From NCBI RefSeq assembly GCF_040958095.1, contig NC_091209.1, positions 10,755,437 through 10,819,436 of the forward strand: a stretch of DNA of 64,000 nt, in the 5' to 3' direction. Every line of letters starts with the position of its first letter. The first letter of the stretch is position 1. A program made the translations under genes and the position numbers. The notes beneath the pieces are model-generated. The model ran no database searches. It was not told the DNA's origin and saw nothing but the letters and a program-made list of their open reading frames with translations. Shown here one piece after another: positions 9,523 to 59,548 of this stretch. The DNA is from Procambarus clarkii (Eukaryota > Arthropoda > Malacostraca > Decapoda > Cambaridae).

Positions 9523-9526
9523 AGAA

Positions 9527-11222
9527 TATGACTGAAGTTGCCGCCCAGTTGGGTGGCTAAGGCTGCCGCCCAATTGGGTGGCTAAGGCTGCCGCCCAATT
9601 GGGTGGCGCACATGATTAAAGCTGCTGCTGTGTGTAGAATATGACTGAAGTTGCCGCCCAGTTGGGTGGCCGAGGCTGCCGCCCAATTGGGTGGCTGAAG
9701 CTGCCGCCCAATTGGGTGGCGCACATGATTAAAGCTGCTGCTGTTGTGTGTAGAACATGACTGAAGTTGCCGCCCAATTGGGTGGCTAAGGCTGCCGCCC
9801 AATTGGGTGGCTAAGGCTGCCGCCCAATTGGGTGGCGCACATGATTAAAGCTGCTGCTGTGTGTAGAATATGACTGAAGTTGCCGCCCAGTTGGGTGGCC
9901 GAGGCTGCCGCCCAATTGGGTGGCTGAAGCTGCCGCCCAATTGGGTGGCGCACATGATTAAAGCTGCTGCTGTTGTGTGTAGAACATGACTGAAGTTGCC
10001 GCCCAATTGGGTGGCTAAGGCTGCCGCCCAATTGGGTGGCTAAGGCTGCCGCCCAATTGGGTGGCGCACATGATTAAAGCTGCTGCTGTGTGTAGAATAT
10101 GACTGAAGTTGCCGCCCAGTTGGGTGGCCGAGGCTGCCGCCCAATTGGGTGGCTGAAGCTGCCGCCCAATTGGGTGGCGCACATGATTAAAGCTGCTGCT
10201 GTTGTGTGTAGAACATGACTGAAGTTGCCGCCCAATTGGGTGGCTAAGGCTGCCGCCCAATTGGGTGGCGCACATGATTAAAGCTGCTGCTGTGTGTAGA
10301 ATATGACTGAAGTTGCCGCCCAGTTGGGTGGCCGAGGCTGCCGCCCAATTGGGTGGCTGAAGCTGCCGCCCAATTGGGTGGCGCACATGATTAAAGCTGC
10401 TGCTGTTGTGTGTAGAACATGACTGAAGTTGCCGCCCAATTGGGTGGCCGAGGCTGCCGCCCAGTTGGGTGGCTAAGGTTGCCGCCCAATTGGGTGGCTA
10501 AGGCTGCCGCCCAATTGGGTGGCTAAGGCTGCCGCCCAATTGGGTGGCGCACATGATTAAAGCTGCCGCTGTTGTGTGTAGAATATGACTGAAGCTGCCG
10601 CCCAATTGGGTGGCTAAGGCTGCCGCCCAATTGGGTGGCGCACATGATTAAAGCTGCCGCTGTTGTGTGTAGAATATGACTGAAGTTGCCGCCCAGTTGG
10701 GTGGCTGAAGCTGCCGCCCAATTGGGTGGCTAAGGCTGCCGCCCAATTGGGTGGCTAAGGCTGCCGCCCAATTGGGTGGCGCACATGATTAAAGCTGCTG
10801 CTGTTGTGTGTAGAATATGACTGAAGTTGCCGCCCAGTTGGGTGGCCGAGGCTGCCGCCCAATTGGGTGGCTGAAGCTGCCGCCCAATTGGGTGGCGCAC
10901 ATGATTAAAGCTGCTGCTCTTATGTGTAGAATATGACTGAAGTTGCCGCCCAATTGGGTGGCCGAGGCTGCCGCCCAAATGGGTGGCTGAAGCTGCCGCC
11001 GTTGTGTGTAGAACATGACTGAAGTTGCCGCCCAATTGGGTGGCCGAAGCTGCCGCCCAATTGGGTGGCTGAAGCTGCCGCTGTTGTGTGGAGAACATGA
11101 CTGAAGTTGCCGCCCAATTGGGTGGCGCACATGATTAAAGCTGCCGCCGTTGTGGTGAACATGACTGAAGCTGCCGCCCAGTTGGGTGGCTGTAAAGCTG
11201 CCGCCCATTTGGGTGGCTAAAG
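9527..11222. repeat. Palindromic satellite with a 229-bp higher-order unit
   Basis: The core GCCGCCCAATTGGGTGGC is a near-perfect 18-bp palindrome, with a single G:T mismatch pair between arms, and recurs every 23-26 bp or after a spacer. From about 9,557 to 10,400 a 229-bp block repeats nearly unchanged. Beyond that the order decays. Spacers alternate between GCTGCTGCTG and GCTGCCGCTG versions. Confidence 0.95.
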
Positions 11223-15189: not shown

Positions 15190-15880
15190 TTTTTACAAGG
15201 GAACAGGGGAGACGCAACAAGGCAGCAGGGGGGGGGGGGGAAGACGCAACAATGAGCAAGGGAGGAGGAAGGGGGGGGGGGGTAGACGCAACAATGACCG
15301 AGGGAGTGGGGGGGGGGGTGAAGAGACGCAACAATGAACAAGGGAGTGGGGTGAAGAGACGCAACAATGAACAAGGGAGTGGGGGGGGGGGGTGAAGAGA
15401 CGCAACAATGAACAAGGGAGGAGAGGGGGGAGGAGACGCTACAATGAGCAAGGGAGGAGAGGGGGGAGGAGACGCTACAATGAGCGAGGGAGGAGGGGGG
15501 GAGGAGACGCTACAATGAGCAAGGGAGGAGAGGGGGGAGGAGACGCTACAATGAGCGAGGGAGGAGGGGGGGAGGAGACGCTACAATGAGCGAGGGAGGA
15601 GGGGGGGAGGAGACGCTACAATGAGCGAGGGAGGAGGGGGGGGAGACGCTACAATGAGCGAGGGAGGAGGGGGGGGAGACGCTACAATGAGCGAGGGAGG
15701 AGGGGGGGGGAGACGCTACAATGAGCGAGGGAGGAGGGGGGGGGAGACGCTACAATGAGCGAGGGAGGGGGGGGGGTGAGGAGACGCTACAAAGAGCGAG
15801 GGAGGGAGGGAGGGAGGGACGCAACAAGGGAGCAGAGGGGGGGGGGACGCAACTAGAGGGCTGGGGGAAGGGACCCGCCA
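15190..15880. repeat. C-rich minisatellite, right arm (reverse)
   Basis: GGGAGACGCAACAATGAGCA units separated by G-rich runs. This is the exact reverse of the array at 2,640-5,355. The array is much shorter here and lacks the LTR insertion. Confidence 0.96.
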
Positions 15881-22529: not shown

Positions 22530-25440
22530 GTGGGGGTAGAGGTCCACCCCCCTGAGTGACAGCCAGGAGGGGGTGGACCGCCCCGGGTGACAGCCAGGAG
22601 GGGTGGACCGCCCCGGGTGACAGCCACGAGGGGGTGGACCGCCCCGGGTGACAGCCAGGAGGGGTGGACCGCCCCGGGTGACAGCCACGAGGGGGTGGAC
22701 CGCCCCGGGTGACAGCCAGGAGGGGTGGACCGCCCCGGGTGACAGCCACGAGGGGGTGGACCGCCCCGGGTGACAGCCAGGAGGGGTGGACCGCCCCGGG
22801 TGACAGCCACGAGGGGGTGGACCGCCCTGGGTGACAGCCAGGAGGGGTGGACCGCCCCGGGTGACAGCCAGGAGGGGTGGACCGCCCCGGGTGACAGCCA
22901 GGAGGGGTGGACCGCCCCGGGTGACAGCCAGGAGGGGTGGACCGCCCCGGGTGACAGCCAGGAGGGGGTGGACCGCCCCGGGTGACAGCCAGGAGGGGTG
23001 GACCGCCCCGGGTGACAGCCAGGAGGGGTGGACCGCCCCGGGTGACAGTCAGGAGGGGTGGACCGCCCCGGGTGACAGCCAGGAGGGGGTGGACCGCCCC
23101 GGGTGACAGCCAGGAGGGGGTGGACCGCCCCGGGTGACAGCCAGGAGGGGTGGACCGCCCCGGGTGTCAGCCAGGAGGGGTGGACCGCCCCGGGTGACAG
23201 CCAGGAGGGGTGGACCGCCCCGGGTGACAGCCAGGAGGGGGTGGACCGCCCCGGGTGACAGCCAGGAGGGGGTGGACCGCCCCGGGTGACAGGCAGGAGG
23301 GGTGGACCGCCCCGGGTGACAGCCAGGAGGGGGTGGACCGCCCCGGGTGACAGCCAGGAGGGGTGGACCGCCCCGGGTGACAGCCAGGAGGGGGTGGACC
23401 GCCCCGGGTGACAGCCAGGAGGGGGTGGACCACCCCGGGTGACAGCCAGGAGGGGTGGACCGCCCCGGGTGACAGCCAGGAGGGGTGGACCGCCCCGGGT
23501 GACAGCCAGGAGGGGTGGACCGCCCCGGGTGACAGCCAGGAGGGGTGGACCGCCCCGGGTGACAGCCAGGAGGGGGTGGACCGCCCCGGGTGACAGCCAG
23601 GAGGGGGTGGACCGCCCCGGGTGACAGCCAGGAGGGGGTGGACCGCCCCGGGTGACATCCAGGAGGGGTGGACCGCCCCGGGTGACAGCCAGGAGGGGTG
23701 GACCGCCCCGGGTGACAGCCAGGAGGGGTGGACCGCCCCGGGTGACAGCCAGGAGGGGTGGACCGCCCCGGGTGACAGCCAGGAGAGGGTGGACCGCCCC
23801 GGGTGACAGCCAGGAGGGGGGTGGACCGCCCCGGGTGACAGGCAGGAGGGGTGAACCGCCCCGGGTGACAGCCAGGAAGGGGTGGACCGCCCCGGGTGAC
23901 AGCCAGAAGGGGTGGACCGCCCCGGGTGACAGCCAGGAAGGGTTGGACCGCCCCGGGTGACAGGCAGGAGGGGGTGGACCGCCCCGGGTGACAGGCAGGA
24001 GGGGGTGGACCGCCCCGGGTGACAGCCAGGAGGGGTGGACCGCCCTGGGTGACAGGCAGGAGGGGTGGACCGCCCCGGGTGACAGGCAGGAGGGGTGGAC
24101 CGCCCCGGGTGACAGCCAGGAGGGGTGGACCGCCCCGGGTGACAGGCAGGAGGGGTGGACCGCCCCGGGTGACAGCCAGGAAGGGGTGGACCGCCCCGGG
24201 TGACAGGCAGGAGGGGGTGGACCGCCCCGAGAGACAGCCAGAAGGGGGTGGACCGCCCCGGGTGACAGCCAGGAGGGATAGACCGCCCCGAGAGACAGCC
24301 AGAAGGGGGTGGACCGCCCTGAGACAGCCAGGAGGGGTGGGCCGCCCCGAGGGACAGCCAGGAGGGGGTGGACCGCCCCGAGAGACAGCCAGGAGGGGGT
24401 GGACCGCCCCGAGAGACAGCCAGGAGGGGGTGGACCGCCCCGAGAGACAGCCAGGAGGGGGTGGACCGCCCCGAGGGACAGCCAGGAGGGGGTGGACCGC
24501 CCCGAGGGACAGCCAGGAGGGGGTGGACCGCCCCGAGGGACAGCCAGGAGGGGGTGGACCGCCACGAGAGACAGCCAGGAGGGGTGGACCGCCCCGAGAG
24601 ACAGCCAGAAGGGGGTGGACCGCCCTGAGACAGCCAGGAGGGGTGGGCCGCCCCGGGTGACAGGCAGGAGGGGGTTGACCGCCCCGAGAGACAGCAGACG
24701 GGGGTGGCCCGCCCTGAGACAGCCAGGAGGGGTGGGCCGCCCCGAGGGACAGCCAGGAGGGGGTGGACCGCCCCGAGAGACAGCCAGGAGGGGGTGGACC
24801 GCCACGAGAGACAGCCAGGAGGGGTGGACCGCCACGAGAGACAGCCAGGAGGGGTGGACCGCCACGAGAGACAGCCAGGAGGGGTGGACCGCCACGAGAG
24901 ACAGCCAGGAGAGGTGGACCGCCACGAGAGACAGCCAGGAGGGGGTGGACCGCCCCGAGAGACAGCCAGGAGGGGTGGACCGCCACGAGAGACAGCCAGG
25001 AGGGGTGGACCGCCCTGGGAGACAGCCAGGAGGGGTGGACCGCCACGAGAGACAGCCAGGAGGGGTGGACCGCCACGAGAGACAGCCAGGAGGGGTGGAC
25101 CGCCACGAGAGACAGCCAGGAGGGGTGGACCGCCACGAGAGACAGCCAGGAGGGGTGGACCGCCCTGGGAGACAGCCAAGAGGGGTGGACCGCCACGAGA
25201 GACAGCCAGGAGGGGTGGACCGCCACGAGAGACAGCCAGGAGGGGTGGACCGCCACGAGAGACAGCCAGGAGGGGTGGACCGCCACGAGAGACAGCCAGG
25301 AGGGGTGAACCGCCACGAGAGACAGCCAGGAGGGGGTGGACCGCCCCGAGAGACAGCCAGGAGGGGTGGACCGCCACGAGAGACAGCCAGGAGGGGTGGA
25401 CCGCCCTGGGAGACAGCCAGGAAGGGGGTGGAAATGCCTC
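22530..25440. repeat. 31-bp minisatellite, about 93 copies
   Basis: Unit GGTGACAGCCAGGAGGGGTG plus GACCGCCCCGG, 31 or 32 bp. From about 24,230 a GAGAGACAGCC variant takes over, and further right a GACCGCCACGA variant. Because 31 is one more than a multiple of three, the frame rotates every unit and all six frames stay open for kilobases, including a minus-strand frame of 998 codons. These are not genes. Confidence 0.98.
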
Positions 25441-25629
25441 GGATGACAGCCAGGAGGTGGGGGGCGGGGGTGTCATCAGGGGTCAAAATACCAGCAAAAG
25501 TTTATAACCCAATGGAAAACTCTCAACACTAAAACCAAATTTTAAACTCGAGCCGAGGCCCAGTGTTTGCAGCACGACTAGACGAGTGCCGGATTTGTTC
25601 TGATATACACAGGTTGAAGTTAGAATGTG

Positions 25630-44194: not shown

Positions 44195-45295
44195 GTACAA
44201 GTGTGAGAGGAGTCAGCAAGTACAGGTGTGCGGTGATCACTGCAGGTGTGAGAGGAGTCGGCAAGTACAGGTGTGCGGTGATCACTGCAGGTGTGAGAGG
44301 AGTCAGCAAGTACAGGTGTGCGGTGATCACTGCAGGTGTGAGAGGAGTCGGCAAGTGAAGTACTGTACCTGTACAGGTGTGAGAGGAGTCGGCAAGTGCA
44401 GTACTGTACCTGTACAGGTGTGAGAGAAGTTGGAAAGTACAGGTGTGAGAGGAGTCAGAAAGTATAGTACAGGTGTGAGAGGAATTGGCAAGTACAGTAC
44501 AGATGTGAGAGGAGTTGGCAAGTACAGTACTGTACTGTACCTGTACAGGTGTCAGAGGAGTCGGCAAGTACAGTACTGTACCCGTACAGGTGTGAGAAGA
44601 GTTGGCAAGTACAGTACAGGTGTGAGAGAAGTCAGCAAGTAATATACAGGTGTGTGAGGAATCAGCAAGTCCAGTACAGGTGTGAGAGGAGTTGGCAAGT
44701 ACAGTACAGGTGTGAGAGGAGTTGGCAAGTACAGTACAGGTGTGAGAGGGGTCAGCAAGTACAGTACTGTACCTGTACAGGTGTGAGAGGAGTCGGCAAG
44801 TATAGTACAGGTGTGGGAGGAGTCGGCAAGTACAGTACAGGTGTGAGAGGAGTCGGCAAGTACAGTACAGGTGTGGGAGGAGTCGGCAAGTACAGTACAG
44901 GTGTGAGAGGAGTCGGCAAGTACAGTACAGGTGTGAGAGGAGTCGGCAAGTACAGTACAGGTGTGGGAGGAGTCGGCAAGTACAGTACAGGTGTGGGAGG
45001 AGTCGGCAAGTACAGTACAGGTGTGAGAGGAGTCGGCAAGTACAGTACAGGTGTGGGAGGAGTCGGCAAGTACAGTACAGGTGTGAGAGGAGTTGGCAAG
45101 TACAGTACAGGTGTGAGAGGAGTCGGCAAGTACAGTACAGGTGTGAGAGGAGTTGGCAAGTACAGTACAGGTGTGAGAGGAGTCGGCAAGTACAGTACAG
45201 GTGTGAGAGGAGTCGGCAAGTACAGTACAGGTGTGGGAGGAGTTGGCAAATACATGACAGGTGTGAGAGGAGTTGGCACGTATAGGACAGGTGTG
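44195..45295. repeat. 30-bp minisatellite (GTGTGAGAGGAGTCGGCAAG)
   Basis: About 35 units of TGTGAGAGGAGTCGGCAAGT plus ACAGTACAGG. The left third is mixed with longer units containing GTACTGTACCTGTACAG, itself a palindrome, and with TGCGGTGATCACTGCAGG units. 30 is a multiple of three, so frames stay open without coding meaning. It is intronic to the minus-strand gene. Confidence 0.96.
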
Positions 45296-46037
45296 AGAAA
45301 TACTGTACTTAAAGCAACATGTCATCTCTTACATACCAATAAACAACAACAGTTAATTAGAGGAAAATATAAATAACAAAGAAGAGACTGCTGGTGAAAA
45401 GGATAAAACAGAGGTAAAACTTTTTTTTTTCCTGTCAAAATTAGACTTGAAATACCAGAAGAGCAAAGTATTGGAAAGTAAACAATGTTCTGTAATGATG
45501 AGTGGCAGGGGCATAATACCTATATAATACTCCCATTTTAATGTTCGCAAACTATTGAAATAGCCATGTGGAAAATTTAAGAAAAAGTCCATAGCCACCA
45601 TGAACACTAACAAAGGTATGCATAAATGTGCGTACTATTTACAAAACATTGTAATTTACATATAATCCACAGGAGAGCAGGGGAATAACCAAATTAGGAA
45701 CAATAATTGTGCCAGGGTTTTACCCTGAGGATCCACGAGATGAAAATAGCAACAGTAAGCCTCAAATAGGACTTCAACATGCAATATTCAAAGTGCAGAG
45801 AAACAAAGATGTCATGCCAGCATTTCATATTTTATAATTAAAACTTCACAATCAAAACTGAAAAGTAAACAAGTCTAGTAAAGGCCAAGAGAAAAGTAGT
45901 CGTACACAAGTATGAAGAAAGCAATCGCCAAGAACATTCATTTTAGGCAGAAGTAGGAAGGGAAGAGTAGTTGACACGAGAGCTTGGATAATGGATCCAT
46001 TAAAAAATCACCAATAATGGTTCCTTCAACCTGACGG
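45296..46037. other. No gene seen (intron)
   Basis: AT-rich intronic DNA of the minus-strand gene. Confidence 0.6.
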
Positions 46038-47590
46038 TGTACTCACCTAGTTATGCTTGCGGGGGTTGAGCTTTGCTCTTTGGTCCCACCTCTCAATGGT
46101 CAATCAACTAATGTACAGGTTCCTGAGCCTACTGGGCTCTATCATATCTTCACTTGAAACTGTGTATTGAGTCAGCCTCCACCACATCACTTCCTAATGC
46201 ATTCCATTTGTATACTACTTTGACACTGAAAAAATTCTTTCTAATATCTCTATGGCTCGTTTGGGCACTTTATTTCCACCTGTGTCCCCTAGTGCATGTG
46301 CCCCTTGTGTTAAATAGTCTGTCTTTATCTACCCTATCAATTCTTCTGAGAATCTTGTATGTGGTGATCATGTCCCCTCTAACTCTTCTGTCTCCCAGTG
46401 ACGTGAGGTTTAATTCCCGTAGTCTCTCCTCGTAGCTGATACCCCTCAGTTCGGGTACTAGTCTGGTGGCAAACCTTTGAACCTTTTCCAGTTTAGTCTT
46501 ATGCTTGACTAGATATGGACTCCATACTGGAGCCTCATACTCCAGGATTGGTCTGACATATGTGGTATCTAATGTTCTGAAAGATTCCTTACACAAGTTT
46601 CTAAAGGCTGTTCTTATGTTAGCCAACCTGGCATATGCCGCTGATGTTATCCTCTTGATATGAGCTTCAGGGAACAGGTCTGGCGTGATATCAACCCCCA
46701 GGTCTTTCTCTCTCTCTGACTCTTGAAGTATTTCATCTCCCTAATGATACCTTATATCTGGTCTCCTGCTCCCTAAACCTATTTTCATTACATTGGCTTG
46801 GGTTAAACTCTAACAACCATTTGTTCGATCGTTCCTGCAGCTTGTCCAGGATTAAGACAGAGGAGGACAGCTTGAGGCTTCAAGAAGAGCCTCAAGCTGT
46901 CCTCCTCTGTCTTAATCCTTCTCATAATTTTGGCGTCATCAGCAAATATTGAGAGGAATGAGTCTATACCCTCTGGGAGATCATTTACGTATATCAGAAA
47001 CAGGATAGGTCCGAGTACAGAGCCCTGTGGGACTCCACTGGTGACTTCCCGCCAATCTGAGGTCTTACCCTCACTGTAACTCTCTGCATCCTATTGCTTA
47101 GGTACTCCCTTATCCACTGGAGCGCCCTACCAATTACTCCTGCCTGTTTCTCAAGCTTATGCATCAGCCTTTTATGGGGTACTGTGTCAAAGGCTTTCCA
47201 ACAGTCCAAAAAAATGCAGTCAGCCCATCCTTCTCTTTCTTGCTTAATCTTTGTCACCTGATCATAGAATTCTATTAAGCCTGTAAGGCAAGACTTACCC
47301 TCCCTGAACCCATGTTGATGGGTTGTCACGAAGTCCCTTCTCTCCAGATGTGTTATTAAGTTTTTTCTCACGATCTTCTTCATCACCTTGCATGGTATAC
47401 AAGTTAAGGACACTGGCCTGTAGTTCAGTGCCTCTTGTCTGTCACCTTTTTTGTATATTGGGACTACACTAGCCATCTTCCATATTTCTGGTAGGTCTCC
47501 CATTTCCAGTGACCTACTGTACACTATGGAGAGTGGCAAACGAAGTGCTCCTACACACTCTTTCAATACCCATGGTGAGATTTCGTAATT
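46038..47590 (-). mobile_element. LINE (CR1/jockey-like), 5'-truncated, minus strand
   Basis: Minus-strand reverse-transcriptase motifs in order: WKMASVVPIYKKGDRQEALN (47,460), YRPVSLTCIPCKVMKKIVR, QHGFREGKSCLTGLIEF, CIFLDCWKAFDTVPHKRLM, then the [11 protein letters not shown] active-site region near 46,930. The ORF2 tail is TYVRPILEYEAPVWSPYLV and LVPELRGISYEERLRELN. The frame is broken in several places, including by an inverted duplication at 46,851-46,916. The 3' end has the ACTCACCTAGTTATG motif. Endonuclease and ORF1 are absent. Confidence 0.9.
46851..46916. repeat. 29-bp perfect inverted duplication inside the LINE
   Basis: ATTAAGACAGAGGAGGACAG...GGCT at 46,851-46,879 is repeated as its exact reverse complement at 46,888-46,916 with an 8-base loop. 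The LINE coding sequence requires only the right copy. Confidence 0.9.
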
Positions 47591-48612
47591 ACCTAAGTGT
47601 AGTTACAGGATGAGAGCTACGCTCGTGGTGTCCCATCTTCCCAGCACTCTTTGTCATATAATGCTTTGAAACTACTGACGGTCTTGGCCTCCACCACCTT
47701 CTTCCCTAACTTGTTCCAACCGTCTACCACTCTGTTTGCGAAAGTGAATTTTCTTATATTTCCTCGGCATCTGTGTTTAGCTAGTTTATATCTATGACCT
47801 CTTGTTCTTAACGTTCCAGGTCTCAGGAAATCTTCCCTATCGATTTTATCAATTCCTGTTACTATTTTGTATGTAGTGATCATATCACCTCTTTTTCTTC
47901 TGTCTTCTAGTTTTGGCATATTTAATGCCTCTAACCTCTCCTCGTAGCTCTTGCCCTTCAGTTCTGGGAGCCACTTAGTAGCATGTCTTTGCACCTTTTC
48001 CAGTTTGTTGATGTGCTTCTTAAGATATGGGCACCACACAACAGCTGCATATTCTAGCTTTGGCCTAACAAAAGTCGTGAACAATTTCTTTAGTATATTG
48101 CCATCCATGTATTTAAAAGCAATTCTGAAGTTAGAAAGCGTGGCATAGGCTCCTCACACAATATTCTTTATGTGGTCCTCAGGTGATAGTTTTCTATCTA
48201 GAACCACCCCTAGATCTCTTTCTTTATCAGAATTCTTTAAAGATTTCTCACATAATTTATAGGTTGCATGGGGTCAATGTTCTCCTATTCCACATTCCAT
48301 AACATGGCATTTATTAACATTAAATTCCATTTGCCAAGTGGTGCTCCATATACTTATTTTGTCCAGGTCATCTTGAAGGGCATGACAATCATCTAAGTTT
48401 CTTATCCTTCCTATTATCTTAGCATCATCAGCAAACATGTTCATATAATTCTGTATACCAACTGGTAGATCATTTATGTAGACAATAAACATCACTGGTG
48501 CAAGAACTGAACCCTGTGGTACTCCACTTGTGACATTTCTCCATTCCGATACATTGCCTCTGATCACAGCCCTCATTTTTCTATCAGAAAATTTTTCATC
48601 CATGTTAGAAGC
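47591..48612 (-). mobile_element. Second LINE, 5'-truncated, minus strand
   Basis: Reverse-transcriptase motifs [20 protein letters not shown] and MFADDAKIIGRIRNL (48,400-48,520) are followed by the tail KLFTTFVRPKLEYAAVVWCP, LEKVQRHATKWLPEL and GDMITTYKIVTGIDKID. It is a different subfamily from the neighbour that starts at once to its left. A short loss of frame lies between the two open parts. Its 3' end (TAACTACACTTAGGTAAGTA type) is also found at 52,640-52,755. Confidence 0.9.
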
Positions 48613-49251
48613 TTACCTGTCACCCCTCCAATATTTTCCAGTTTGTGTGTGTGTGTGTGTTGTGGCCCACCAAGTGTTTTGGAGCTGCCGTACACTATAG
48701 TTGTAGTCAAGGTCTCATAGTTCTTGCTTTTCCTATACCTGGTATTATAAACGGTTTAAACTATCATAAGCCTTATTATGAATATGGCAGGTACTTGCAC
48801 ATGAAAAATATAATGAAACTGTATTTACAAGATATTGCAGGTAGTGTTGTGCATAAATTTCCCACAGTGTGTGGTAAATAATCAACATATATTGAATATA
48901 TAATCATGTAATAGTTCAGACAAGTTTCTGGTAAATCCCATAATTTGTTATTATAGCAAGTTTCGAAAACTAACTCATCACATCTCATAGCAACAAATAC
49001 ATATACTGTTCATCAGTGATGTGCAGTATTTTATAAAAATATATCCAGAATTTATTTTCAAACCATTTGTGTGTGTGTTGTAAATAAAATTTTAGCCAAT
49101 AACGGATCACAAGGAAAATTACTTTTACATTTCAAACGGCATAACAATTATGAGTACAGTTATCTCATTCCTGCAAACCTAAATACATAATACAAAGGTA
49201 AGCATAAAAAATATGATATACTGTACAATATCTAAAATACAAAGAAATTAC
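48613..49251. other. Intron, nothing supported
   Basis: AT-rich intronic DNA with a short (GT)n at 48,643-48,660. Confidence 0.6.
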
Positions 49252-49407
49252 CTGAATTTCAGAATCTAAAACTCCTGTAGAAACTCGCGGATGAGTTCCA
49301 ATATTGTGAAGAGAGTCAGTCATAGACATGCGCACTCTACGCACGTCTGCTGCCACTGCTGAACTTCGGCTTCGATACTCTCTAATTTGCTCACGATACT
49401 GGGCAAT
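49252..49407 (-). CDS. Coiled-coil/RS-tail protein, exon
   Basis: Minus-strand exon of 156 bp: acceptor TTCCATCTTCAG, donor CAG before GTAATT, phase 0 at both ends. It codes for IAQYREQIREYRSRSSAVAA, then DVRRVRMSMTDSLHNIGTHP and a short end. The start is heptad-like; the second part looks less helical and carries several basic and phosphorylatable residues. It joins the exons at 49,781-49,918 and 40,431-40,544 (or 42,297-42,446) in frame. Confidence 0.8.
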
Positions 49408-49780
49408 CTGAAGATGGAAAACATAGTATTTTAATTACTGCTATAAGTTGTCACTGTCCATGCTCTTACTCATGTGTTATAATGCTCCTCAACTGAATCC
49501 TATTTTGCATCATATGCAGAGAATAAGTTCCAATAATGTGGCTGAAACAAATAACCTGACCCACACATCATCACTTTCATTTCACTGTGTGTGTGTGTGT
49601 GTGGCTTGGGTTATTTGCATCAGAAAAATTAATAAATGAAAAGAGTACATAAAACTGTTAGGTGCTCCATTATTGAGCAAATAACAATGTATCAAGTATT
49701 TTAAGTTGTACAGAATATGCAAATTTAAATGAAGACACTTTAAATGAATAAATCTTTTAGTAGGATGACCATTACATCAC

Positions 49781-49918
49781 CTGCTGCTCAAGTGAGTGGA
49801 GTCTCAGCTCACATCGCTCCTTCTCCTGTCGTAGGCCTTCCAATTGGTTGGTGAGGCGACGGATCTTCTCACTGTCTACTTGCCGCTCTCGGCGGTGATC
49901 ACTACTCATGTCCAGTGT
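49781..49918 (-). CDS. Coiled-coil/RS-tail protein, exon
   Basis: Minus-strand exon of 138 bp: acceptor CAACTCTGTAG, donor CAG before GTGATG, phase 0 at both ends. The peptide TLDMSSDHRRERQVDSEKIR then RLTNQLEGLRQEKERCELRL is a clear heptad coiled coil. The DIRS1-like fossil begins only about a dozen bases upstream of its acceptor, so the polypyrimidine tract of this splice site abuts the element. Confidence 0.85.
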
Positions 49919-49961
49919 CTACAGAGTTGAAAAAACCAGCGTTGAATGTAATGAAACGCCA

Positions 49962-50385
49962 TTTTCTGGGTGAGCCCCGGAGGCTCCCTGGAGCTTATCG
50001 GGCTAATGTGTGTTATGTTAGACCGGGACATTAGCTAAGGAGTTCAGACCTACCAGGGACCAGCGCCAGAACCTGGCCCCTTCAGAGAGGTTTCAGGGAG
50101 CAATGGCCCTGGAAAACCCCATATGGTTGGGGGTTTTCCTTATCTGCCATCGACCGGGGTTAGGCACCCAGAAAGGTAGGCGTAACAAAACAAACCCCAC
50201 ATGGTAAGACACTACAACAAAAACCGAACAGAGAGGTAGAAAACTCCCTACAATCCCAAGGAAACAAGCAAACAAGCAAACATCACACTTTACTGCCGCG
50301 CCGATCGTCCGCGCAGCCCTCCCCACCCCGGGAGGGGGAGGGGGGAGCCCCGGACCTACCGCGCCGGCTGCCAAGCTCCAGTTCG
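49962..50385. repeat. DIRS1-like inverted terminal repeat, 3' copy
   Basis: Reverse complement of 55,717-56,143, apparently with no differences over the inner 380 bp (a 93-codon open stretch translates identically in both). The outermost 30 bases differ from the other copy (GTGAGCCCCGGAGG here, GGGAGCCCCTACGG there). A further 30 bp outside (49,932-49,961) is present only on this side. Confidence 0.88.
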
Positions 50386-50439
50386 GAAGCTAAGCCTCAA
50401 CCAACGCGAAAAAACCGCCGACCGGTGGGAGGGAGGGTT

Positions 50440-50535
50440 GCCAGGGAGCCTCCGGGGCTCACCCAGAAAATGGCGTTTCATTACATTCAACGCTGGTTTT
50501 CTGTGGGGAGCCCCTACGGCTCCCTGGAGCTTCAT
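50440..50535. repeat. DIRS1-like internal complementary region
   Basis: 50,440-50,497 is the reverse complement of 49,932-49,998 (3' outer end including the 30-bp extension). 50,497-50,535 matches the reverse of 56,108-56,143 (5' outer end). The two element ends are thus joined in one internal block, the diagnostic feature of DIRS1 elements. Confidence 0.85.
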
Positions 50536-52639
50536 ACCCAAAGAGAAGGAAAAGAAAGGGCTAACCCGGGAGGCGGCCGCCACAAACTCTGCAACGCAAA
50601 GCCAAGACAACCGGTCGCAAACCTGCGACCCAAGGCAACAAGAACGCCCAAGAACAGACATACACATGGATGGGCGGCCAAAAACCTGTGCGACCCACAA
50701 TTCCCTGCGCCCGAAATGAGCCCGAGACGTCACCAACACAGCAGCAATTGCTGTAAACGTCTGAACAGCACGGGCGCAAAGACAGACCGCAATAAGAAGG
50801 AAAACACTGCGGACGACCCGGGAGACCCGAGCCCTGAAAACAGGGAACGAAGGAACCGGATCAACCACAGCGCATCCCCAGGCACGGTACGCCGGCAACA
50901 GCAAAAAGCACAACCGGACAACACAGGACGCACCCCCCGGCCAAACCAAACAAGTACCAATACCCCAAGAACCCCTCCGGAAAGCAGCCGTCTCGACCGT
51001 CGCCAGGACAGAGAAAGGCTGCACACCAATAAAGCTACCACCAGTACCAAAGAGGAGGAAACTGAAACCGAAGGGGCTACCACAAACTGAGGGGAAGAGA
51101 AGAAGGCACCCTGAACAAGGACCAGGATGGCTCAGGCGACTCATGAGCAGGCCGGAGGGGAAACAAAACGCGAGAAGACGTAATAAACGTCATACAGTCT
51201 CCAAGACGAAGCTCGCAGGTGGGACACCGTCAACAAAGCCACCTGAACACCATAGAGATGGCGATACCTGCGTCAAAATACCAGACGCGAAGAGCCAAAG
51301 AGAAGGCCGAACCAGTCACGGACAGGACCGATTCGGCCTGCCGAAAGAGGCGAAGCCTCAGGAAAAACGCCCCGGGTACGGACACCTATCAAGCAGCGTC
51401 TGAAAAGAAGGCCGGGCCGGCCACAGTGGAACCATAAGGACTGTTCTCGTGGGAATGGGCTGCAACTGAGCCAGAACCCGAAGCAACAGCTGGACCGGGA
51501 GAAGAGGTACAGGTACCCCCCACCTCGACCAGGCCTGCCGAAAGCCTCCACCGTGAAGTCCTCGCAGGTGGGAAGGGCGCCACAAAACGGGCGACGCCTA
51601 GACCACGCCGACCCGAAGACGTCCATGGCCAGGAGTCCATAAGCCCAACAGAGCCAACAAAACGAATCGGCGACGACTGGCCAACCCACGAAGAGGAATG
51701 AACCGAGACAGCTGTCCACCAGGACGCAGGACACACCCCGGACACGAGCCACACGGTTAACCAAACCCCCTGTGGTTCCGGCAAGAACCACCAGAGAACA
51801 GTCCAAACAGAGCTGAACGGTAGAGTACCTAGTGACCTAAACCCTCCGAAGCGCAAACCAGACAGCCATGAACACCTGAACCGGGCTGTGAGCCCGACGG
51901 ACAGACAGACTCCATCAACCTCGGCTGACCTGGTGAGCACAGGTCACAAAGCCCCAGCCGAGAGACGACCCGTCCGTGAACACATCGAGCGAAGGCTCGG
52001 GGAGCCGCCAAGGCACGGAACCCCGAAAACCCCAAAGAGGAAGCTGGTGACGCAGCACCAACACCAGATCCCCAGAGGAACCCAAGGAATGCAAGAGGCG
52101 GAAGTGGAGTCTCCATAGGAACCAACCGACGCCGGAGCCAAACCCGACTCTGCGGGCAGACAAGCACGCCGAAGTGCAAACTCCCGCACAACCGCCCAAG
52201 CAACCGCTGAGCAACCCGGGACCCCCTCCTGAACAGCCAAAGGCGGGACCACAGCCACAGTAACACTTCTGGAGGGAAGACAATGAGGGGCCCAAGAGCC
52301 TGAAACAAGGCCCAGGTCCGAACCCGGGACGGAACAGAAGGTAAAACCTCCAGATCACCAGGAAACCAAACCCAGCGATCTGGAAAGAACCATCCCCTGG
52401 CGAGCAGACAAGCGGACTGACTGGGAGCCCACTCCAGCCAGTCGTCGAGGTAGGCCAGACACCGAATCTCAGACGCAGACAGGGCACTAAGATCCGGTAA
52501 AGACGCAAAGAGTATACAAAGTGCCCTTCACAAAATAGGGAATGCAATAAAAACAGCAAACCTGAAGCCCCACCACCAAAGCATTGTATGACAATCATAT
52601 GAAGACATATTATGACATATGACAATCATTATATGACAA

Positions 52640-52755
52640 TATGACAATTATAATCAAAGCATTATATGACAGAGTGCTGGGAAGACGGGACACCACGAGA
52701 GTAGCTCTCATCCTGTAACTACACTTAGGTAAGTACACATAGGTAATTACCAACC
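52640..52755 (+). mobile_element. LINE 3' end fragment nested in the DIRS1-like element
   Basis: AGAGTGCTGGGAAGACGGGA and GTAGCTCTCATCCTGTAACT match the reverse of the LINE 3' end at 47,590-47,670. A short ATATGACAAT tandem lies at its left edge. Confidence 0.75.
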
Positions 52756-53224
52756 GTGCTAGCCCCAGAAAAACTGGAGAGGAATGTGCCAAGAAGTGAC
52801 CTGGAGGTCCAGGTCCACCAACCATGCACCCGGCCCTAACAGAATCCGAACAGGAGACAACAGTCCTCCGAGCAGGGCAGAGGATCCAGGGCGCAGACGG
52901 AAGTAGTCCAGAAGAACTGCAGACTGGAAAAGCTCATGACTGCAAAGAGCAGACGGGAAGCCCAGAAGGATGGGGCGGAACGACCACGCCCCACGCACCC
53001 ACGAAGAGGAAATGACGAAGCGCAGGGAAGAAGCCCACCCCGCCAGCTCTGAACCCCCCCCAAGGGGAGAAGCCGTCCTCCGACGCCAGCAGAGACCGGA
53101 AGACAACCCAAAGCGCCCACCAACAGCGGGACCAAGCGAGAGGCAACAGAGCAAGCTGCTCCCCCAGCGCCCAGTCAACAGAGAAGGGAACAGAACCCCT
53201 TCAGAAAGAAAAGTACACTACCGA

Positions 53225-53417
53225 AGTCATGAGGAGAGACTACGGGAATGAAACCACACTTCGCTGGAAGAGGAAGTGAGGGGAGACCTGATCACCACAT
53301 ACAAGATACCCAAGGGAATCGACAGGGTTGAGAAGGACAGGATATGTAACACAAGGGGCACACGCACTAGGGGACACAGGTGGAAACTGAGTACCCAAAA
53401 GAGCCACAGATAGAATT

Positions 53418-53463
<46 letters not shown>

Positions 53464-53670
53464 AGTGTCAGAATGGGAACGGGAAAGCACTAAGAAGTAA
53501 TGTGGTGACTCCTCACACAAGTAACGAGGCTGACCCCCATACAATGTCACATGTAGACATGACAGCCCAAGAGGCACAGGAACCGATACACCTGTTGACG
53601 GACGGTTGAGAGGCAGGACCAAGGAGCCAGAGCTCAACCCCCACAAGCACAACTAGGTGAGGACATATAT
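53225..53670 (+). mobile_element. LINE 3' end fragment nested in the DIRS1-like element, with T43 tract
   Basis: GGGGCACACGCACTAGGGGA and GAGCCAGAGCTCAACCCCC match the family at 46,038-46,330 and 19,215-19,815. A run of about 43 T at 53,420-53,462 sits where relatives have five or six T. The fragment is unusually poor in T elsewhere, like the element around it. Confidence 0.8.
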
Positions 53671-55716
53671 TGTAAAAGCACAAGCCGCCGACTAGTGGCA
53701 AAGAGCACTACACCGGCCAGGCAAAGAAGGCACAAAACTGCATCAAAAGGCCCACCTCGACAGCAAAACCACAAAGTCCCAGCACAACCACAACATGTGC
53801 CAAGACCCAAAAAGCTCAGTCTGCAAGCCAGGAAGACCCCGGAACCCCAAAAGGCAGAACCGGGTCACACGAGGAAACAAAGTCCCCTGAACCCACAAAA
53901 GGGGGCCCAAGAGGAAGAAACCTCCAGAACGAAACCAAGGAACCCAAAGGAACCCAGAATCGAACCAGGGGGAGCCCAAACCACCACATTTGCCGGCGGA
54001 GAACACCACTAAAAGGCAAAGCACAGACCCCAGCAGAACGCCCTGGGAAAACGGTCCCAACAGACCGAAAACCGAGGGGCAAGGTGTGGGAGCAAGCATA
54101 CCAGCCAGGGGCACTGAGCCTAAACCCAGAGGCTCAGACCCAAAATCAACACCCAAACGTTCCCAGAGGAACAGGCAACGGCAAGAAAACACCAGAAAAA
54201 CAAAGAAACGACAACAGGAGAACAAAAACCCTGCAAATTTTTTGAAAACTCACCAGAGACGCTCGCTCGCACACCCAGACGCATGTAAACAAACGGCAAC
54301 GCCGCCCTGGTGGCCACGCCGGGAAACCGGCAGACGAAAATGGCCGCCAGCAGGGGCTGTGACTGACGCTTAATACACAAAAACACGCCAGCAAATGTGG
54401 GAAGCTAGCAGACTGGAAGGGCGAAAAACGACGCCCAACAGCAGAAAAACCCCTGAAGGGGCAAAACCGCCCCAGAACTGCTAGTAGGCATCCCCCACAG
54501 CCCCGGGAACCAACAACAGAGGCCCCGGGGCAGAGCCGTCCTCCAAGCCCTCCGCCCTGAAAGAAAAGCAAGAGCCCATGGGGAAGGCAACAAGAAAGGG
54601 CCGCTGGTAAGACCCAGAAGCCTTGGCAGGAGGCACAGGCTCAAACCTCCGTCCCCAACCCGAACGGGGCATCCCCCGAAAACCGCCCGAGTCTCTGCCG
54701 CAACTGAACCCCGCCCCGACCCAGAAACACGCAGACGGTCCGGAGCCGGGAACATGGAGAGAAAGGGGCGAGCAGCACCTAACCAAACGGGGCGGCCACG
54801 GGGCATTCGAGTGGGAAACCAACCTAGCATGTTGCAGCAACCTAACCTAGCTTGCAACACGGATGCCGCCTGTACTCTGAACAGTAATAACATCAGGAGA
54901 GTACTGGAGAACAAGCAGAGAATCACTCGCAAGACTCCGGGTCAAGGTGTCAGTGACCCAACAGGCAGCATGACGGAGGTAAAAATGGCGACTGTCACCC
55001 GGAGACAAGGGAACAGCAACCAACGATCCCGTACAAGACGGGTTGGAACCCGGAAGACACATTCAATGGTCCCCCGAGCCCAGACAGGGGTTTCCAGGGC
55101 CCGTAGGGTAACAACTACGGGAAGCCCGGGCAAGGTGTTGCTAACCGGTTAAGAAACCCAAACATAACAAGAGGGTAGATTATAGCACTGAAAACCCCCG
55201 AGACGTGTACAAGCACGGGGGCCTAGCAGAGGGCCGCCAAACACTACCAGTGGAACTATAACCACCTTAGGCAGACCCCCACCAGGCAAGAAAAAGAAAA
55301 ACAAAAGAAAAACCCCGCAAAAGTACACCGTCTCCAGAGGCAACAGAAACCGGCCGCCGCTTAGGTGGCAGGCTGCGCAACACCTTGACGCCCTAACCAG
55401 CACAATACCAATCCCTACCCAGGGCCAAACAAGGGCCCCAAGCCCCAGCTGGCCCCAAGGGCGAGGCAAATGCCGAGCAGCAAGAACCTCTACGGGAATG
55501 GTTCCCGAACGCCCCAGGGAAGATAACCCTGTAACGCAAGGGCAGTACTCACAGGGCGCTTAGGGAAGTCAGCCACTAAGCACATGCAGCCCCGGCACTG
55601 ATGAAGTACTCCTGGCCACCGCACACCACAACACACGGCAGTGAACGCCACACAAGGCAAACACCGCCTAGGAAACTGAGGCCAGAGAAGCGTCAATCCC
55701 GGTTGACATTAGCGAA

Positions 55717-56143
55717 CGAACTGGAGCTTGGCAGCCGGCGCGGTAGGTCCGGGGCTCCCCCCTCCCCCTCCCGGGGTGGGGAGGGCTGCGCGGACGATCG
55801 GCGCGGCAGTAAAGTGTGATGTTTGCTTGTTTGCTTGTTTCCTTGGGATTGTAGGGAGTTTTCTACCTCTCTGTTCGGTTTTTGTTGTAGTGTCTTACCA
55901 TGTGGGGTTTGTTTTGTTACGCCTACCTTTCTGGGTGCCTAACCCCGGTCGATGGCAGATAAGGAAAACCCCCAACCATATGGGGTTTTCCAGGGCCATT
56001 GCTCCCTGAAACCTCTCTGAAGGGGCCAGGTTCTGGCGCTGGTCCCTGGTAGGTCTGAACTCCTTAGCTAATGTCCCGGTCTAACATAACACACATTAGC
56101 CCGATAAGCTCCAGGGAGCCGTAGGGGCTCCCCACAGAAAAAA
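55717..56143. repeat. DIRS1-like inverted terminal repeat, 5' copy
   Basis: Inverted partner of 49,962-50,385. The outer end reads CGTAGGGGCTCCCCACAGAA on the plus strand. Confidence 0.88.
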
Positions 56144-56589
56144 GCATTTAAAGAATGATAATATTCACCCCTCCCACCACAAAAAAATTCTTAGTTGCTT
56201 TATGACTATAGTGCTCAAATTTAATAGCAGATATAAAAGTTTGCTCTAAATGAAGTACATATTTTTATTTTCAAGTCAACATATTGAATGGAAAGCTGTT
56301 GTAAGAAAAGATAAGAAGACAATACCACAAGTCATCCCAACAAAGTATATAATAAGCAAACACCATAATACTGTTTTAACTTGTAATGCTAATTAAAAGC
56401 CTGCAGGATGAGAAATGAAAATGAACACTTGCTCAACATTCTGGAGGATGAGAAGCATAAGTGAGCAATTTATATTTATGACATATTTAAAGATATTTAT
56501 TGATATTTAAGGATCATAAATAATGGCAACTGCGTATAGATAACATCTGTAAGTGTAGGATATTAATTTTCCAATGCAAAGAAATACGA
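56144..56589. other. Intron, nothing supported
   Basis: AT-rich intronic DNA right of the element. Confidence 0.6.
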
Positions 56590-56655
56590 CTCAAGGAGGC
56601 CTGGTCGGGGACCGGGCCACGGGACGTTGAGCCCTGAAATCATCGCAAGGTATGC
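56590..56655 (+). mobile_element. SINE 3' tail fragment
   Basis: GGAGGCCTGGTCGGGGACCG and TTGAGCCCTGAAATCATCGC match the tail of the SINE at 22,240-22,488. Confidence 0.7.
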
Positions 56656-56721
56656 TGAGAAAATCATTTTAGTAATGTAAGTTTCCATTTGACAAGCAGA
56701 CAAGGCTTATTCTTTACTCAC

Positions 56722-56880
56722 CTCCTTTAAGTGCTTTTGTTGCATCTCTGTTTTTATAGTCTCCAGATCGTCAATCTTTCTTCGTAGTTCCATATTCTCA
56801 ATGCGGAGAGCACTGATATTGGAATCTAACACTGGCTGTTCAGAGCTCGGCCGCTGGCGATCGTGTCGGTCATGTTCGTA
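56722..56880 (-). CDS. Coiled-coil/RS-tail protein, exon
   Basis: Minus-strand exon of 159 bp: acceptor CATATAACCAG, donor AAGGAG before GTGAGT, phase 0 at both ends. The peptide starts YEHDRHDRQRPSSEQPVLDS and continues NISALRIENMELRRKIDDLE, then TIKTEMQQKHLKE, a good heptad coiled coil after a polar linker. Confidence 0.85.
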
Positions 56881-56899
56881 CTGGTTATATGAAACTTGT

Positions 56900-57555
56900 A
56901 GTTAATTATTACTACTCTCAGTTTAAAGCTCATGCTATACAGTAATTGCAATTCGTACACGATAAAAAAATTAAATTCTGTATTGGCTTTGGAGAAGTCT
57001 ACAAAAGCTAATTTTAAATAGAGTACTGTATAATAACTTTCTACAAGAAAAAGCCAGTAAGAAAACTACTGTACTATATCCAACTAGTAAATTACAAAGG
57101 AGAGATCAACAAGTAGAGCATTATGTGTAATGAAATGGCACTTTATGTGCAGCTTCTAAGTAGCTTGTTAATGCTTAAGGCTCTGGTAACATAGAGCCTA
57201 CCCACACATACCAGGCCCCTAACATGTCCACAACCTACCACAAGCCATGATCATAATCTGTTTTGCTCAGAGAGGCGAGAAGAGTTTGAGGATCAGAGAT
57301 CAACCCAAAACTAAGGTAACTACCCAGAAAGCCATTGCAAAATAAAAAAAAACTGCTCTTAATATGAAAAGAAAATGAAGAAACAAGACAAGTAATAATT
57401 AGCAGTAAGAAAACAGCATGTGTGCCAGCTCCCATGACTACCACCTGATGGGGTCTCTAGTGACAAGGGATCTTGGACCAGTTGCACCCTCAAACAAGGG
57501 CTGTCTGAAGCGTTCCAACAAAATGGGAAAAGTAACATTAGGGCAGGAATGGAGA
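56900..57555. other. Intron, nothing supported
   Basis: AT-rich intronic DNA between the exon and the second DIRS1-like remnant. Confidence 0.55.
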
Positions 57556-57559
57556 ACTA

Positions 57560-59548
57560 CTGAAGGACCTCACAGAAAATGGTTTCATTACATTCAATAA
57601 AACATGATCCTCAGCCCCGGGTCTTCCTCCGCAGGACCCAGGGCTGAGTCCTCCCCCAAGCACCTACCCTACCAGACAAGGCCAGCGCAGTCATAGAAGT
57701 CGGATAGAATGAAGCCCACTGGTCAGACCCAGAGGCTTCAGCCGGGGAGGAGACTCGAATTCCTCCGTCGCCACTCCGGAAGGGGCATTCCCCGAGGCTG
57801 CTTGAGTCTCAAGACCAACTAACCCCAGCCCTGACTCTGGAACCCCCTAGATGTTTCGGGGCCGGAAGCAGGAGAGGGGGACCAGAACGAACAACAGAAG
57901 AGGAAGGACTAGGAGGTGCGGACTGAACCAGGGTCGAAGCGATCCCCACCCCCCAAGTCCGGGTCTCTATAAGCAAAACGGGGCCGCCGCGGGGAATCCG
58001 GGTGAGCAACCAACCTAGCGCATTGCAACAAATGAAACCCAGAATCCAATGCCTGCTCAGCCTGTACTCAAAGATGATCATCCACAGATTGGGTAAATTG
58101 AGTCACCAGCAAGCATTAGTACTCACAGGACTCTGGATCGAAAGTGTCACCGACCCAACAGGCTGCGTGAAGGAGGCAAAAACAGTGAGGGTCGCCCTGA
58201 GACAAGGGGACCAAACAACCCTCAAACTCACATGAAGTGAAGGGGAAACCCGGGGTCACATCCATCGAACCCACGCGTCCCCTAGGGGTTTCCCAGGGTC
58301 CTCAGCATTTACTTAAAGAGGACTCGCGCTCAGGTAAACCCAGGCAGGGTACTGCTAACCGGCGCCCAAAAACTACCAAACAAACTGTCTAAAGCTGAAC
58401 CCCAGGGACGTGTACACTCACGGGGACCAAGCAGTGGGCACCACCAAGTATCAGGGTGAGGCCAAACACCAGTGGCAAGTAGGGCAGAACCCTCCACCAA
58501 GGCTCTAGGCCCCCACCACCACTCTATCAACATCAGAGGCCCGAGACTGTTCAACACGCTTCCACTACACATAAGGGGCAGCCGCGTCCAACAGCCTTGT
58601 TGATCAGTCCAGCAACCAGGAGGCCTGGTCGACGACCGGGCCGCGGGGACGCTAAGCCCCGGAAGCACCACAAGGTAAGGCAAACTCAAAAAGAAAAAGA
58701 AAACCCCGCAAGAGGACAACGTACCCCAAGGAACAGAGCCAGCCGCTGTGATAGGTGACAACAAGCTGCGCAGCACCCTGCGTCCCTTACCAGTGCAAAA
58801 ACTGCCTCCTACCCTAAAGTAAACGAGGGAGACAAAACACCCAAGTACCCAAAGGGCGGCCGAAAAACCGAGCAGTTAAATGGACGCACAGAGGCAGACC
58901 CCGAGGAACTTGTGGAAGGTAAGCCCAAGCTCCAAGAGCAGTACTTACAAGACACCTAGGGAAGGGAATTCTAGGCGCATGCAGCCTGAGTTATCTTGAG
59001 TCTTGAGATGACTGAAGAATAACTCCCAGCTCTCGCACCCGTGGTGTACAGCCGCCACACACAAGGCACAGTGCCGAAAAAAGACCAGAGCACACAACCG
59101 AGCCAATAGCATCAGCCTCAAGAATTGGGGTGTGGATTGCCGGTGTGGTGGGTCTGGGGCTACCCCTTTCCCCTCCTTGGAAGGGGGGTGCTGCGCAGAC
59201 AGCGGCGCGATGACGGGTGACATCATACTAGTTTGCTCGTTTTTGTTTGGGGAGTTCTATCCACTCGTTCGGCTTTTGGTTGCAATTTTCACCAGAATAG
59301 GGGTTTGTTTTGGGATGCCTACCTTTCTGGGTGCCTAACCCGGTTGATGGCAGACATAGAATGCTTCCAATCACATGGGGGTTTCTATAGGCCATTGCTC
59401 CCCTTGCCTCTCTAGAGAGGGGCCAGGTTCTGGCTCGTAGTCCCAGGTAGGCCCATAAGAACTCCATACACATGACTGATGCCAAAGTCTGACATTAGCA
59501 TATCAGCCTAGTAAGCTCCGGAGAGCTGTAGGGGCTCCCCCCAGAAAG
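57560..59548 (-). mobile_element. DIRS1-like fossil, shorter diverged copy
   Basis: The right part (about 59,110-59,548) is a diverged version of the inverted terminal repeat. It ends GTAGGGGCTCCCCCCAGAAA and contains GGTTTGTTTTGGGATGCCTA. 57,700-59,100 aligns with the leader region of the larger element (54,600-55,700), for example CGGAAGGGGCATTCCCCGAG against CGAACGGGGCATCCCCCGAA. The left edge (57,565-57,600) resembles the internal complementary region. The reverse-transcriptase part is absent, so it is an internally deleted relative. It is much more diverged than the two terminal repeats of the larger copy are from each other, hence older. Confidence 0.7.
58615..58680 (+). mobile_element. 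SINE 3' tail fragment inside the second DIRS1-like remnant
   Basis: GGAGGCCTGGTCGACGACCG and ACGCTAAGCCCCGGAAGCAC match the SINE tail. The larger DIRS1-like copy lacks it at the matching place. Confidence 0.7.

Follow-up and report, generated by a model that had tools for sequence, protein, structure and literature searches.

How can a transposable element have flawless ends around a ruined interior, and what becomes of a splice acceptor when such an element settles directly in front of it? Both questions are raised by a copy located at 49932-56141 in the window analyzed here, a stretch of 64,000 nucleotides from the decapod Procambarus clarkii (RefSeq assembly GCF_040958095.1, contig NC_091209.1, positions 10,755,437 to 10,819,436), to which all the coordinates below refer. 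As argued in the following paragraphs, we hold with good confidence that this is a copy of a DIRS1-like retrotransposon, which probably moved recently while it was already defective, and which would have been carried by the proteins of an intact relative. The original prediction, made from the letters of the window alone, had described a DIRS1-like element with every structural part at 49932-56143; its low end stands, and its high end is corrected to 56141, the A's at 56142-56143 being assignable neither to the element nor to the host.

The first evidence comes from the termini. The element is bordered by inverted terminal repeats (ITRs), which had been described as near-identical, and this was borne out by alignment and by counting the differences: the longest exact run between the two arms covers 404 of 404 positions, and the five differences (four substitutions and one 1-base gap) all fall at 49968-49981, i.e., in the outer ~20 bp. 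The 30-bp right extension (rE), also noticed at the outset, is present at the low end alone, and the high end is devoid of those 30 bases. In addition, an internal complementary region (ICR) joins the two outer ends, as predicted: its right half (rICR) agrees with the low end at 60/60 nt, its left half (lICR) with the high end at 36/36 nt, and the whole region, 50441-50532, equals over 92/92 nt the reverse complement of the junction predicted from the outer ends joined over AAAA. Moreover, the two divergent outer versions of the ITR both have an exact counterpart in the ICR, each in the half that belongs to its end. Because the extension and the ICR sit at the low end, the coding strand should be the minus strand.

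This layout is that of the DIRS1-like superfamily. PMC3266345 describes DIRS1 ITRs in which the inner part is strictly identical, whereas each outer part diverges under the constraint of its own ICR; a right extension occurs only in the right terminus and in its ICR, and the circular junction lies in the overlap between the two ICRs. The copy considered here has the same order (left ITR, lICR-rICR, right ITR, and rE), the same identical inner and divergent outer ITR parts, an extension on the right only and complementary only to its own ICR, ICRs that overlap on an AAA-type junction to which the termini are complementary, a YLDD motif, and no target-site duplication. Table 3 of that paper lists 28 elements, with sizes of 3974-6283 bp, a range that includes our copy, and conserved ITR parts of 31-304 bp; several of the animal elements have an rE of 26-30 bp, with ICR pairs of, e.g., 39-60. 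The copy differs from these in its conserved ITR, which at 404 bp exceeds the listed values, in the overlap of its ICRs, which is 4 nt instead of 3 nt, even though the fourth A may be due to chance, and in having no recognizable gag, methyltransferase, or tyrosine recombinase while containing pieces that resemble long interspersed nuclear elements (LINEs). An AAA junction is given for three of the 28 elements, namely AcDIRS2, XtDIRS2, and XtDIRS3; these vertebrate elements also have, in the same table, an rE of 28-34 bp and ICRs of ~39-43 and 60-65 nt, whereas their conserved ITR is 102-136 bp long, and they are likened to our copy by layout alone. Membership of the PAT or Ngaro elements was considered and rejected, because those have split direct repeats, whereas the termini here are inverted and no long direct terminal repeats occur in 49000-57500. 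The copy joins a known superfamily, and nothing in it lies outside the known range except an ITR core longer than those of one published table.

As for the age of the copy, neither the ITR core (404 columns) nor the ICR comparisons (96/96 columns identical) contain any difference, which sets a ceiling of ~0.6% on the divergence (a rough 95% bound, 3/500, and approximate, as the two column sets overlap slightly). The original prediction had left the choice between a recent insertion and correction between the repeats, and this choice can now be narrowed. Recent synthesis is favored over conversion from ITR to ITR because the ICR, which is not an ITR, is identical to both ends; conversion between the ITRs alone would neither keep the ICR identical nor preserve the difference between the outer parts and the agreement of each with its ICR half, and conversion is the less probable of the two. 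Judging from the sequence, recent synthesis at transposition would account for the ITR core, for the ICR, and for the pattern of the outer parts. According to the published model, the two outer ends would be completed against the internal region after reverse transcription, AAAA would then serve to close the ends into a circle, which would integrate by recombination at a corresponding run of A's and leave the target unduplicated; in the present case, the copy would have been mobilized in trans by the proteins of an intact relative.

The same element may also be given an older history, in which it inserted intact long ago, its arms were kept identical by conversion, and its interior deteriorated where it lay. 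The arms are inverted and separated by 5.3 kb, so that they could indeed convert, and the thorough breakage of the interior, with its LINE-like pieces, would fit this history. However, conversion would then have to cover the ICR as well, which lies outside the ITRs and is identical to both ends, and would have to stop precisely at the outer ITR parts, which still differ, each of them true to its own ICR half. For this reason, we regard an old insertion as unlikely.

A recent synthesis of the whole copy leads to the question of why its interior is so poorly preserved. That the coding part is broken, as first stated, is confirmed: the longest stop-free stretch on the minus strand between 50530 and 55700 has 236 codons; in shuffles, the median is 223 codons and the 95% value 332, which means that shuffling leaves reading frames just as open as those of the interior. 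Frame breaks, stops, and weakly conserved motifs are distributed over it. A young autonomous copy should keep long reading frames, and this interior does not; given the identical ends and the many stops, the broken frames, and the LINE-like pieces of the interior, it was thus probably already defective at its last movement and mobilized in trans, a reading that is drawn from one copy. Alternatively, the element could have inserted intact and recently, with the breaks being largely errors of assembly or sequencing combined with very recent LINE insertions. The interior is rich in homopolymers and in GC, contains a run of 43 T's, and its motifs survive in several frames, but such errors would then have to be absent from both 404-bp arms and from the 92 bp of the ICR, including their C- and G-runs, although stops, broken frames, and poorly conserved motifs are scattered across the interior, and we find this explanation very improbable.

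Within the interior, the coding remnants consist of short motifs that fall in several frames. They follow one another on the minus strand as YLDDW, GSLHFGVLVCPQSRVWLR, TDGSSLGWG, and VQLCLDCS. The second of them, at 52185-52132, likely is the segment connecting the reverse transcriptase (RT) with the RNase H (RH), or so we take it to be from its general resemblance. The frequency of these motifs by chance was evaluated with 1500 first-order Markov shuffles, using patterns composed after inspection of the sequence: YLDDW appeared in none of the shuffles, the GWG motif in one, and the VQLCLD-type motif in one, while no shuffle contained YLDDW with the GWG motif at most 700 nt after it. Both the order and the strand are the published ones, since PMC2685390 gives YLDD, ASKSGWG, and IRLHCD as pol motifs of decapod DIRS1-like elements; it also states, as the original prediction had said, that such elements are widespread in decapods. 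In the copy as in the decapod families of the AlDIRS1 clade, YLDD is followed first by the ASKSGWG-like motif and then by the IRLHCD-like one; the published pol sequences are partial, and the likeness to this clade is one of motifs alone. RT and RH remnants are likely present in the copy, as these short motifs suggest.

Several points weigh against the reading that we prefer. The motif patterns were chosen with the sequence already in view, and because of this the shuffle counts flatter the motifs. None of the interior pieces matched Pfam in three scans (0/10, 0/2, and 0/5), although the scan was able to detect reverse transcriptases in this window, because, out of three LINE-like stretches taken from other parts of it, one matched RVT_1 above the cutoff. 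The tyrosine-recombinase remnant that had been announced could not be recovered, as two patterns of tyrosine-recombinase type matched nowhere on the minus strand and Pfam gave no match in a region that is broken. Regarding gag and methyltransferase, one piece of the gag region and several of the pol region had no Pfam match, no specific test being made. Of the claim that every structural part is present, the repeat architecture and the RT/RH motifs hold, the latter as short motifs in the expected order, and the claim is too strong as regards gag, methyltransferase, and tyrosine recombinase. Furthermore, mobilization in trans is deduced from a single copy, and ITR-to-ITR conversion or an assembly error in the interior is possible. 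As for another kind of inverted-repeat transposon, such as a foldback element or a DNA transposon with a coincidental inner copy of its ends, the lack of a Pfam match would suit it, but the joined ends are copied exactly inside the element over 92 nt, with each half matching one of the divergent ITR parts, and this is the defining anatomy of DIRS1; YLDD and RH motifs are present, and no target duplication exists beyond the A-run, so that we give it almost no credence.

The second question posed by this locus concerns the host gene, which is encoded on the minus strand and contains the element in its sense orientation, in the intron upstream of exon E3. Exons E2, E3, and E4 read through in a single frame; joining 56722 to 49918 preserves this frame, on paper, and the frame is also preserved if the 138-nt exon is left out. 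The encoded protein is a coiled-coil protein, with weak matches to Rootletin and other coiled-coil families, and the gene is left unnamed because all 18 of its Pfam matches fall below the cutoffs. The intron upstream of E3 measures 6803 nt, and it would measure 597 nt without the element.

The flanks beyond the two A6 junctions are unrelated, and there is no target-site duplication apart from the A-run. Assuming a four-base common junction, the target was probably an A8 run (T8 in the gene sense, followed by CAACTCTGTAG), and this T8 was probably the pyrimidine tract in front of the 138-nt exon of the coiled-coil gene. The extension had been placed next to the acceptor, with the pyrimidine tract, and probably the branch region, coming from or abutting the element. 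The geometry is correct, with the acceptor AG of E3 at 49920-49919, whereas the pyrimidine tract, TTTTTTCAACTCTGT, is largely retained rather than replaced, the greater part of it being still present at the end of the intron, TTTTTTCAACTCTGTAG. Splicing may be unchanged, the tract being kept, or E3 may be skipped without a frame shift.

Branch points of the mammalian type follow the consensus yUnAy. This motif is matched 33 nt before the end of the intron, inside the element, and 52 nt before it, and it has no match in the 66-nt reconstructed empty acceptor, the consensus being mammalian-type and loose. The fixed right terminus of this family (in the gene sense ...CGTTTCATTACATTCAACGCTGGTTTT) might then act as a portable branch region plus the start of a pyrimidine tract, having replaced the host branch region on insertion into the T-run of the acceptor and now defining the 3' splice site of E3; we consider this distinctly doubtful, and it is thinly based because the yUnAy consensus is loose. 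A search of the literature at the level of titles, for DIRS elements with splice sites or pyrimidine tracts, returned nothing evidently on this question.

Table 1. Coordinates of the DIRS1-like copy, its parts, and its surroundings, in ascending order.
Feature	Position	Strand	Remarks
Host exon E4, 156 nt	49252-49407	-	Downstream of the element; AG/GT borders
Host exon E3, 138 nt	49781-49918	-	Phase 0-0; AG before, GT after
A6 at low junction	49930-49935		49932-49935 common to element end and target
DIRS1-like retrotransposon copy	49932-56141	-	6210 bp; left ITR at high end; ICR, right ITR, and rE at low end
rE, 30 bp	49932-49961	-	Outside the ITR, whose alignment begins at 49962
Right ITR, divergent part	49962-49981	-	Carries all the ITR differences
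Right ITR, conserved part, 404 bp	49982-50385	-	Exact reverse complement of 55717-56120
rICR, 60 nt	50441-50500	-	Matches low end 49932-49991
lICR, 36 nt	50497-50532	-	Matches high end; TTTT at 50497-50500 common with rICR
RNase H-like motif VQLCLDCS	51795-51818	-	Compare published IRLHCD
RNase H-like motif TDGSSLGWG	51951-51977	-	Compare published ASKSGWG
GSLHFGVLVCPQSRVWLR, likely RT-RH connection segment	52132-52185	-	By resemblance; pattern composed after inspection
RT catalytic motif YLDDW	52438-52452	-	YLDD named as conserved in PMC3266345 and PMC2685390
LINE-like piece in element	52654-52736	+	94% over 85 columns to 47669-47585 (tail of LINE-like stretch)
LINE-like piece in element	53231-53665	+	68.5% over 445 columns to 46431-46038
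Left ITR, conserved part, 404 bp	55717-56120	-	
Left ITR, divergent outer part	56121-56141	-	
A6 at high junction	56138-56143		
Host exon E2, 159 nt	56722-56880	-	Upstream of the element; AG/GT borders
Older partial relative	57600-59547	-	Left ITR and 5' interior; pol region missing

The window also includes a second, older relative of the element, which lies in the next intron upstream in the same orientation. Its left ITR, 59139-59547, is 72-73% identical to that of the first copy, and 57716-58793 is about 69-83% identical to pieces of the 5' interior of the first copy. The segment 57569-57598 resembles the rICR/rE in 29 of 33 columns, with a score of 23 that is marginal against the largest value of 22 from 100 shuffles, and it is possibly an ICR/rE remnant of this relative. 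In a scan with a 25-nt motif (at most three mismatches, no gaps), the only two places matched are both in the first copy. A right ITR was not found beside this segment, as the local alignment of the left ITR to 57000-57700 scored 13, with shuffles scoring up to 20. In the two blocks that were compared between the copies, none of the 10 gaps is a multiple of 3, and the mismatches by codon position (20/53, 16/52, and 8/53 in one block; 26/80, 20/79, and 28/79 in the other) give no consistent reading-frame signal. The spectrum of substitutions between the copies has no one-sided excess, for instance of A-to-G only.

With regard to base composition, the plus strand of the element interior (50530-55700) has 34% A and 11% T, or ~9% T outside the LINE-like pieces, and that of the second relative (57600-59120) has 30% A and 14% T. 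In the flanking host DNA, A and T are near-equal, at ~33% and ~32%. The presumed coding strand is strongly A-poor in both DIRS-like copies. The LINE-like pieces may have been acquired before or after the insertion. The run of 43 T's, at 53420-53462, lies in one of them, and the run in the related stretch near 46.2 kb is ~6. A LINE-like reverse transcriptase at 46994-47602 (RVT_1, E = 1.9e-14) belongs to the LINE-like reading frames of 46.0-48.6 kb.

Relatives were also sought outside the window. Peptide patterns of the RT region matched three stretches of viral contigs, none of them confirmed, and a 22-nt ITR pattern had zero matches in viral contigs and zero in contigs of prokaryote genomes; absence from these collections says little because copies from eukaryotes would not be there. 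Rfam had no matches in the window. Large tandem-repeat arrays occupy 22556-25457 (a 30-bp unit, ~95 repeats), 9523-10755, 2713-5355, 15227-15827, and 44201-45298.

Taken for what it tells about the family, this copy is a natural test of the model of DIRS replication, with ITR differences confined to the parts for which the two ends have separate templates in the ICR, one half for each, and with identity everywhere else. That the ends look young and the interior dead points to mobilization in trans. Finally, the locus provides a DIRS1-like element sitting within a pyrimidine tract and, if the right terminus were truly a portable branch region and the family preferred A/T runs, acceptors could be remodeled again and again by insertions of this kind.

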